Shown here: positions 20,208 through 21,353 of the stretch, piece by piece
Position numbering within the stretch: position 1 is the first letter of the stretch
Layout: each line of letters starts with the position of its first letter
NCBI RefSeq assembly: GCF_026672375.1
Contig: NZ_JAPPRA010000001.1
Span: 2,790,001 to 2,854,000 of the forward strand
Origin: Caulobacter sp. SL161
GTDB lineage: Bacteria; Pseudomonadota; Alphaproteobacteria; Caulobacterales; Caulobacteraceae
Direction: 5' to 3'
Length of the DNA stretch: 64,000 nt
The notes under the pieces: generated by a model
Database searches by the model: none
Told to the model about the DNA's origin: nothing
What the model saw: only the letters and a program-made list of their open reading frames with translations
Program-made: the position numbers and the translations under genes

Positions 20208-20246
20208 CCGAGGGCGGCTGGGGAGAAACCGCCCCGCGCCCTTCCC

Positions 20247-20271
20247 TTGGCGGGATGGAGTCCCTATATTC
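20247..20271 (+). promoter_or_regulatory. probable sigma-73 promoter of ssrA
   Basis: TTGGCGG (20247-20253) and CCTATATTC (20263-20271) have the spacing of the Caulobacter housekeeping promoter (TTGACGS, 10-14 bases, GCTANAWC). They lie just ahead of the tmRNA acceptor segment. Confidence 0.6.
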
Positions 20272-20275
20272 ACTG

Positions 20276-20564
20276 GGTCCGGCTTCGGCCGAACTATGGG
20301 GATAAACGCGCACGTAATAAGCGGACTGGACCCGGGTGCGATTCCCGGCGGCTCCACCAAATCTCTCCCAAGTTATCATGGGACTGCATGGGGCCGATCA
20401 GCATCGACAGACGTGTAAAGGTGTATGCTTTCTCTCGGCTTGGCCCACCGTTTCGGGCCTTTATCTAAATGCGAACGATAACTTCGCTGAAGAGTTCGCC
20501 GTCGCTGCGTAATGCGGTGCAGGTGAATTCGCCTCTTAAGTCCTAGGGGTTCAGATCCCTAGGC
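20276..20564 (+). ncRNA. ssrA: transfer-messenger RNA, circularly permuted two-piece form
   Basis: The acceptor segment comes first. Its T arm CCGGG-TGCGATT-CCCGG (20332-20348) is followed by acceptor strand GGCTCC (20350-20355), discriminator A and encoded CCA ending at 20359. The coding segment starts at 20390 with GGGGCC, which pairs with that acceptor strand (one G-U pair). The roughly 30 bases between would be removed. The tag reading frame is GCG AAC GAT ... GCG TAA. The 5-prime end of the acceptor piece and the 3-prime end of the coding piece are approximate. The last hairpin, CCTAGGG/CCCTAGG (20542-20563), may mark the 3-prime end. The product rescues stalled ribosomes. Confidence 0.96.
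20471..20512 (+). other. tmRNA tag-peptide reading frame
   Basis: It encodes ANDNFAEEFAVAA then TAA. With the tRNA-borne Ala the full tag is the published Caulobacter AANDNFAEEFAVAA. The terminal AVAA is the ClpX-type recognition end, and the N-terminal AANDNFAEE part is the SspB-binding region. Confidence 0.97.
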
Positions 20565-20574
20565 GGGGCCCGGA

Positions 20575-20787
20575 GGGAGCCTGCCAACAGAATCCCTCCA
20601 CCTTCTCCCGACATTGCCGAGGCTCCCTCCTCTTGCTTCTTGAGGACATGGGGGAGCCTGCCAACAGAATCCCTCCACCTTCTCCCGACATTGCCGAGGC
20701 TCCCTCCTCTTGCTTCTTGAGGACATGGGGGAGCCTGCCAACAGAATCCCTCCACCTTGCCCTTCCCCGACATCGCTGAGGAATCCC
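20575..20787. repeat. 77-bp tandem repeat, about 2.7 copies
   Basis: Copies begin at 20575, 20652 and 20729. The first two are near-identical over 77 bp and the third diverges after about 45 bases. Each unit carries GGGAGCC near its start and GGCTCCC about 40 bases later, so hairpins can form within or between units. It lies between ssrA and sspB with no coding role evident. Confidence 0.9.
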
Positions 20788-20864
20788 GCGACGCCTGCTT
20801 TGCGCGTGGCGCGTGACGCGCTAGGCTTGGAATCTCGTTTTCAGTTCGAAGTTTCACGCCGAGC

Positions 20865-21353
20865 ATGTCCCAGACCGAACCGCCCGAAGACCTCATGCAA
20901 TACGAGGCCATGGCCCAGGACGCCCTTCGCGGCGTGGTCAAGGCGGCCCTGAAAAAGGCCGCCGCGCCGGGCGGCCTGCCCGAACCTCACCACCTCTACA
21001 TCACCTTCAAGACGAAGGCGGCGGGCGTGTCGGGTCCGCAGGATCTGCTGTCGAAATATCCGGACGAGATGACGATCGTCCTGCAGCATCAGTACTGGGA
21101 CCTGGCGCCCGGCGAGACCTTCTTCTCGGTCACCCTGAAGTTCGGCGGCCAGCCCAAGCGCCTTTCGGTGCCCTACGCGGCGCTCACGCGCTTCTATGAT
21201 CCGTCGGTTCAGTTCGCCCTGCAGTTCTCGGCGCCGGAAATCATCGAGGACGAGCCCGAGCCGGATCCGGAGCCCGAAGAGAAGGCGACCACCGGCGCGT
21301 CAGGCGACGAAGGCCCAAAGATCGTCTCCCTGGACCAGTTCCGCAAGAAATGA
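20865..21353 (+). CDS. sspB: SspB-type ClpXP adaptor for ssrA-tagged proteins
   Basis: A 162-residue alphaproteobacterial SspB (SspB-alpha type). The substrate-binding domain (about 10-130) contains HHLYITFKTKAAGVSGPQDLLSKYPDEMTIVLQHQYWDL, followed by a flexible acidic linker rich in Glu/Pro. A short C-terminal motif KIVSLDQFRKK matches the ClpX-binding (XB) tail of SspB proteins. It tethers ssrA-tagged proteins to ClpXP. Its position 300 bp after ssrA makes a rescue-and-degradation module. The stop overlaps the next thioesterase gene by 4 bp. Confidence 0.92.
   Translation: MSQTEPPEDLMQYEAMAQDALRGVVKAALKKAAAPGGLPEPHHLYITFKTKAAGVSGPQDLLSKYPDEMTIVLQHQYWDLAPGETFFSVTLKFGGQPKRLSVPYAALTRFYDPSVQFALQFSAPEIIEDEPEPDPEPEEKATTGASGDEGPKIVSLDQFRKK

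Follow-up and report, generated by a model that had tools for sequence, protein, structure and literature searches.

Tandem copies of the tmRNA 3'-terminal hairpin, with a covarying competing strand, downstream of ssrA in Caulobacter and related Alphaproteobacteria

The window analysed here, a stretch of 64,000 nucleotides from Caulobacter sp. SL161, carries on its forward strand the tmRNA gene ssrA, a tandem array of 77-bp repeat units and the gene sspB, and all features described below lie on that strand. The ssrA gene is of the permuted alphaproteobacterial form, the family model RF01849 (alpha_tmRNA) matching positions 20238-20602 with 237.1 bits against a cut-off of 50. It encodes an acceptor piece (chain B, 20277-20359), delimited by matches to RF04321 and RF01849, by the encoded CCA end and by a start taken from the length of 83 residues given in the accessible portion of the published model (PMC1168896), and a coding piece (chain A, 213 nt, 20390-20602), identified by RF01849, by ARAGORN, which reads the tag ANDNFAEEFAVAA, and by agreement with the published chain. 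As far as the accessible text of the C. crescentus model describes it, chain A has 213 residues, with the resume codon GCG at 82-84 and the stop codon at 121-123 (PMC1168896); when 213 nt are laid out from GGGGCC at 20390 they reach 20602, and residues 82-84 and 121-123 are GCG and TAA, as published. The ends mapped in S. meliloti, in the available part of that study, define a 214-nt mRNA-like piece and an 82-nt tRNA-like piece (PMC2873474). The downstream neighbour, sspB (20865-21353), encodes 162 aa and matches Pfam SspB (PF04386) with an E-value of 2.1e-40.

Direct repeat comparison of the window showed that unit 1 (20575-20651, also reported by TRF) and unit 2 (20652-20728) are identical at 77 of 77 positions, and that a third copy matches perfectly for its first 30 nt (20729-20758) and less well on to 20781 (87% identity across 20729-20781), which bears out an earlier note on this DNA that had recognized two near-perfect copies and a partial third. 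Since the array has a TRF score of 368 and the seven other rows reported in the 64-kb window score at most 55, it is not a product of chance. The internal inverted repeats described in the same note are also present, with arms longer than it gave: in unit 1, GGAGGGAGCC (20572-20581) and GGCTCCCTCC (20621-20630) are complementary at 10 of 10 positions. Its placement of the array right after ssrA has to be corrected. Because chain A and the RF01849 match both end at 20602, bases 1-28 of the unit (20575-20602) are tmRNA sequence and the array begins within the gene; the 77-bp unit is made of the tmRNA 3' hairpin end and about 49 bp of DNA downstream, and the terminal hairpin of the tmRNA therefore recurs in every unit, a point that the note had missed.

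Each unit consists of a 7-nt strand A, the loop GCCTGSCAACAGAA, a 7-nt strand B, a spacer of about 20 nt, a strand C, a T-rich stretch and the A strand of the next unit. The C strand comprises GGC and a copy of B, and can pair with A, thereby excluding the A:B hairpin. In shorthand the arrangement is (HP-s-C-D)n-HP, HP standing for the hairpin that ends the coding chain of the two-piece alphaproteobacterial tmRNA on its 3' side. In the window, HP1 (20572-20599; A 20572-20578, loop 20579-20592, B 20593-20599) is the 3' end of the coding chain and part of pk3, which spans residues 177-209 in the accessible portion of the C. crescentus model (PMC1168896), corresponding to 20566-20598 of the window; we read its stem as one pk3 helix, the other being formed, on our modelling, by the loop GCC and an upstream GGGGC. 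In unit 1 the C strand, GGCTCCCTCC, occupies 20621-20630, can pair with 20572-20581 and is followed by a T-rich stretch (20629-20645), recognized by its enrichment in T, that holds a small dyad CCTC...GAGG, noted by eye. The second hairpin copy (20649-20676; A 20649-20655, loop 20656-20669, B 20670-20676) has its C strand at 20698-20707; the third and final copy (20726-20753; A 20726-20732, loop 20733-20746, B 20747-20753) has none behind it and gives way to a diverged spacer (20754-20781), within the region of 87% identity, and then to species-specific flank. As a separate observation made by eye only, the small dyad past C, D, seems to be compensated between many species (CCTC...GAGG, CTTC...GAAG, CTCT...AGAG; L011, L012, L013 and others).

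The predicted folding energy of HP1 is -17.4 kcal/mol (z -4.49), and that of copies 2 and 3 is -13.1 (z -1.74). These two copies score 35.9 bits with a hairpin model built here and, with RF00023, yield only fragments of 8.5 bits, far under the cut-off. The first 28 nt of the unit are the 3' terminal hairpin of the family described by RF01849 and RF04321 (tmRNA_permuted), from which the arrays differ in that the full-length RF01849 match takes in the gene and HP1 only, leaving outside it from one to five further hairpins and the C strand. Searched against known RNA families, the spacer gave no match, MIMT1_1 and HTH-XRE lying far beneath the cut-off.

The same architecture is found in the single-contig genomes G003, G011 and G012, so an assembly artefact is an unlikely source of the repeat. 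Draft assemblies do break at the array, as at the contig end inside the array of G059 and the run of N in that of G040.

Among 75 genomes of the genus, ssrA is present in 74, with one, two, three, four, five or six hairpins in 40, 17, 12, 3, 1 and 1 of them, respectively; 34 of the 74 therefore carry two to six copies, in a tally that includes degenerate copies and the N-interrupted G040 and scores the truncated G059 as one. Copy number, which the earlier note had suggested might vary between strains, was found to vary between species. A covariance model of the hairpin matched 246 of 249 genomes of the family, 71 of which, in 8 of 21 genera, gave at least two matches, and 215 of 289 genomes of the class, just four of which (our own genome included) gave more than one; these are counts of matches per genome, adjacency having been read directly in the genus set. 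When named genomes were scanned for two loops 60-90 bp apart, 73 stretches were retrieved: 58 have the ssrA acceptor motif 210-242 nt upstream, 11 more that lack it are ssrA ends by eye (some cut by contig ends), and four (L107, L121, L143, L155) are coding repeats by eye and were removed, as were 20 duplicates of genus genomes. Hosts of arrays include Caulobacter, Phenylobacterium, Brevundimonas, Asticcacaulis, Tabrizicola, Rhodobacter and Hyphomicrobiales, and beyond Caulobacteraceae such arrays occur sporadically in Rhodobacterales and Hyphomicrobiales. Of the named genomes in these sets, the one nearest to the window is that of Caulobacter vibrioides DSM 9893 (G069, L135).

A dispersed, REP-like family of repeats is ruled out, there being no second full copy of the unit in its own genome, on a search that the earlier note had proposed, and the loop motif being nearly confined to ssrA. 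Away from ssrA, the exact loop occurs in the 75 genomes only at G001:C77:115612-115625 and G041:C87:29752-29765, leaving aside a match on G059:C47 that resembles the remaining half of a contig-split array. Two variant arrangements were also encountered. Asticcacaulis sp. UBA2476 (L166) has three hairpins spaced 44-45 bp apart, whose arm pairs all differ and among which no C strand is evident, and in two metagenome-assembled genomes of Proteobacteria/Rhizobiales (L105, L174) a palindromic repeat of the type AAAAGTGGG...ACCGGTTTT, which resembles a dispersed Rhizobiales element, lies between two ssrA hairpins.

Pairing within the units was assessed in an alignment of 44 arrays not selected for C, comprising 41 of 42 references (L111 was left out) and three Caulobacter loci. 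For A and B of the first hairpin, 97.1% of cells are paired, 7 of 7 pairs have changed on both sides, and the covariation value is 0.601, compared with at most 0.174 in slid alignments; for A of the first hairpin and C, 94.6% of cells are paired, 6 of 10 pairs have changed on both sides, and the value is 0.361, compared with at most 0.154. Pairing of C with the following A is weaker (79.9% of cells, covariation 0.203, 5 of 10 pairs changed on both sides, which is no more than in shuffles), and in the second hairpin 76.9% of cells are paired, with the inner pairs retained and the outermost one absent from 31 of the 44 arrays. Counts of pair types showed no clear excess over shuffles for either A:B (119/500) or A:C (69/500).

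The C strand also fits its own unit. Of 80 first units that precede another hairpin, 66 have a C strand that matches their own A at 9-10 of 10 positions, as against 6 of 1,600 shuffles, and at this level (at least 9 of 10) C occurs behind none of 81 last hairpins and in three of 40 single-hairpin genomes (G026, G028 and the contig-cut G059). Being missing after the last hairpin and in 37 of the 40 single-hairpin genomes, C is dispensable. Where the B of a first unit is unlike that of the next (21 units), C scores at least 8 in 18, all of which fit their own A better than the next; among 13 later pairs of units with differing B, the fit to the own A is better in seven, tied in five and worse in one. 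In L128, L167 and L168, the stretch behind the last hairpin fits the A strand of the first hairpin better than its own. A genus-only RNAalifold consensus of 31 units pairs A with B in the first hairpin and C with the following A, at a covariation term of nearly nil (-0.21), and on this model the next A may also hold C. With the pk3 pseudoknot ignored, A:C and A:B are close in energy, A:C having the lower value in 59 of 66 units (mean difference 2.1 kcal/mol), and the two stand at -21.3 and -21.1 kcal/mol in the window; the stability of the full array does not exceed that of shuffles (z -1.1). The possibility that A:C is a basal trait of all alphaproteobacterial ssrA genes was considered and ruled out: of 45 class and order loci, 29 gave the loop (our own genome included; the 16 without it owe this partly to orientation), and the 28 others all have C at 8 or below, at least four of these being apparently wrong loop matches.

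Within arrays of the genus, the later hairpins are kept better than the spacers and the C strand is not. Across 24 neighbouring pairs of full units, differences number 0/168 in B, 1/336 in the loop, 8/230 in C and 32/874 in the spacer, B and loop differing less than the spacer (p 0.006 and 0.0005, respectively) and C no less (p 1.0). Across all arrays (45 pairs) the corresponding figures are 14/315, 4/630 (the loop having been partly selected for), 24/400 and 128/1,597, and C is again no better kept than the spacer (p 0.21); in the arrays from the pattern scan the difference between B and spacer is not significant (14/147 against 96/723, p 0.28). A filtered version of this comparison, restricted to adjacent units that had the same length and a C score of at least 8 (B 0/175, C 3/250, spacer 27/876), overstated the constraint on C and was discarded. 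In later copies with a changed B, pairing of B with its own A was not clearly better than cross pairing and so gives no evidence of selection.

The region past C is rich in T. The first 8 nt contain on average 4.2 T, compared with 1.9 expected from the region before C, and at least 4 T in 50 of 66 units, although by eye a clear T tract is mostly lacking in the Rhodobacter and Hyphomicrobiales arrays. The GC-rich stem of such a terminator is represented by the 10 pairs of A:C; the loop, at about 38 nt, is outside the usual 3-8 nt. A scan of the array for consensus terminators, which admits loops of 3-8 nt only, found nothing, as did a scan for consensus promoters, and terminator-like sites number one, inside ssrA, against 0.7 expected. 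The notion that arrays compensate for a weak U tract behind HP1 was ruled out, T past HP1 standing at 2.97 per 10 in array genomes and 3.34 in single-hairpin genomes.

The structure and evolution of the array are well supported, and from them we infer a function. Its role likely lies in the making or ending of tmRNA, and an effect on termination downstream of ssrA is plausible. The account that we place first, while holding it only tentatively, is that of a terminator-like 3'-end element that overlaps the end of the tmRNA and recurs in tandem. C is able to draw the A arm and the loop GCC into a helix of 10-11 bp that excludes the pk3 hairpin and, by way of its GGC, the pairing of the loop in pk3; in the precursor RNA this A:C stem and its T-rich tail would work as the terminator-like element, the mature end would arise by trimming back to B or by refolding to A:B, and the extra copies would repeat the stop-and-trim signal, such that the ssrA transcript ends ahead of the next gene. 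We count in its favor the covariation of A:C and A:B, the fit of C to its own A, the enrichment in T, the A:C energies, the conservation of later hairpins and the likeness of flanks to those behind last hairpins (below). Against it we count that C is dispensable and conserved no better than the spacer, that the loop is about 38 nt and A:B would form first, that the T tract is mostly unclear outside Caulobacteraceae and the tails of HP1 are equal, that later hairpins are weaker by z-score, and that the genus fold pairs C with the following A. A further reading, which we consider unlikely, makes C an "anti-pk3" strand that unites both pk3 partners (GGC and B): the tmRNA precursor would be a poised two-state RNA whose switch to mature pk3 sets the amount of tmRNA, and the array would multiply that switch and serve as a reservoir for replacing the 3' hairpin, as the Asticcacaulis genomes L103 and L110 (below) may illustrate.

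Known systems offer partial parallels. Like tandem intrinsic terminators, the array repeats a GC-rich stem and T-rich tract downstream of an RNA gene; it differs in that the stem is built with the 5' arm of a domain of the mature RNA and encloses a loop of about 38 nt, the units turn over fast and termination is a predicted property. As in attenuators and riboswitch-type alternative helices, strand A has two exclusive partners, B or C, of near-equal energy; here, however, they stand in tandem at the 3' end of a structural RNA, with no known ligand or signal. The flaviviral xrRNAs are tandem exonuclease-resistant RNA elements, and share with the array duplicated 3' structures that are pseudoknot-like, but they act on an exonuclease of opposite polarity, and resistance on the part of the array would be hypothetical.

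The close rival of the terminator reading, itself possible and ranked second, is neutral turnover with template switching: slippage or unequal crossing-over would duplicate the selected tmRNA end, new copies arising next to the gene and old ones decaying distally, while template switching between the inverted repeats would copy changes of A and B into C, and the array would have no function of its own. Much in the comparison of genomes agrees with such a process. In 29 of 33 arrays the units are closer to other units of the same genome than to those of any other genome, indicating concerted evolution; array and single-hairpin states alternate among close relatives, switching 16 times across a 59-genome tree, as against a mean of 20.0 and a minimum of 13 in shuffles; 40 of 74 genomes manage with a single hairpin; some final copies are degenerate (G074, G008, G037); and C within arrays is conserved no better than the spacer. 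In G024 (L032) the loop is altered to GCCCGTCAACCGAA in HP1 and three later copies and to GCCCGCCAACCGAA in the fifth, and because the alteration is common to HP1 and later copies, the gene end itself joins in the exchange. What neutral turnover does not predict is the enrichment in T past C, and it sits uneasily with the near absence of differences in B and loop within genus arrays (B not being significant in the pattern-scan arrays) and with A:C pairing kept at 94.6% over lineages with different arms.

Close relatives also indicate how units are exchanged. In 11 of 16 close pairs the flank of the single-hairpin genome resembles that behind the last hairpin of the nearest array-bearing partner; five of these 11 also resemble the first spacer (including G026 and G028, which retain C), and five of the 16 pass neither test. 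The flanks of G020, which has no such unit, and G017, which has one, are almost alike. These patterns fit a process in which recombination between hairpins adds or removes entire units, decay being a second path; units come and go among close relatives, which is what recombination or slippage at the hairpins would be expected to produce. In the Asticcacaulis genomes L103 and L110, both metagenome-assembled, two unit types occur in swapped order, the type of hairpin at the tmRNA end differing accordingly, and the gene end appears to have changed places with a downstream copy.

Protection of the 3' end ranks third and is improbable. Extra pk3-like hairpins would act as sacrificial ends that shield the two-piece tmRNA from 3'-5' exonuclease, copy number tuning its half-life. 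According to the available text of one study (PMC12320835), the tmRNA of C. crescentus is a substrate of RNase R, which may find an entry point in the two-piece form; the better conservation of loop and B than of spacers in genus arrays would suit such a role. However, the coding chain has been mapped or modelled, in the accessible parts of two studies, with one hairpin only, at 213-214 nt (PMC2873474, PMC1168896), and the later hairpins, by eye, have no GGGGC ahead of them for pk3 pairing and in 31 of 44 arrays no longer form their outermost pair.

We attach very little probability to the processing of each unit into a small RNA, whether as tandem sRNAs or as a sponge, by way of the conserved loop GCCTGSCAACAGAA. 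The later copies do retain the loop, but its GCC fits the pk3 pairing of tmRNA, which would explain its conservation, single hairpins suffice in 40 of 74 genomes, and the small-RNA products would be hypothetical.

Slightly less credible still is the earlier note's proposal that the array tunes read-through into sspB, which gains something from the position of sspB, 3' of ssrA and co-oriented with it in 59 of 74 genomes. A conserved promoter-like box, GACGCGCTA (20815-20823), precedes sspB outside the array; 48 of 59 genomes of the genus have it, in the form GAC[ACG][CGT]G[CT]TA, 41-53 nt ahead of sspB (0 of 59 when each was shuffled once), and it looks like an sspB promoter element. With and without arrays it is found alike (26 of 29 and 22 of 30 genomes), and five of the 15 genomes without sspB in the stretch fetched have arrays (one of the five on a stretch of only 261 nt), so control of sspB by the array is not supported. 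In some species only (L010, L012 and L077, from G040, G019 and G015), an intergenic element with arms like CCCTCCCC...GGGGAGGG lies between array and sspB.

Least probable of all is that the hairpins are attachment sites or scars of integrative elements targeting the ssrA 3' end: islands often use ssrA, as the available portions of two reports state (PMC11915505, PMC4131195), and the hairpins might be likened to recombinase sites, yet no Phage_integrase was seen by eye near ssrA among the matches listed for 75 genomes, and the spacers, short, homologous and holding a covarying C, are unlike decayed islands.

The best reading of the array, from comparison of these sequences, is that of a recombinationally unstable set of tmRNA 3'-end, terminator-like modules. 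The tmRNA family and tandem terminators are already known; the arrays and the C strand appear to be undescribed, no earlier account of either having come up in the article texts searched. As tmRNA is nearly universal in bacteria, and its two-piece form and cell-cycle control have been worked out in Caulobacter, a fast-changing tandem copy of the tmRNA 3' end with a covarying, competing strand represents a feature outside the gene models. In either case the array marks a spot where assemblies and calls of the tmRNA end can err, and the count of hairpins is a possible strain marker. If neutral, it would be a clear case of a gene end trading sequence with its own downstream repeats; if functional, it would constitute a 3'-end switch on a housekeeping RNA and, should the reading of C as an anti-pk3 strand be true, a fast-evolving control of ribosome rescue in bacteria.
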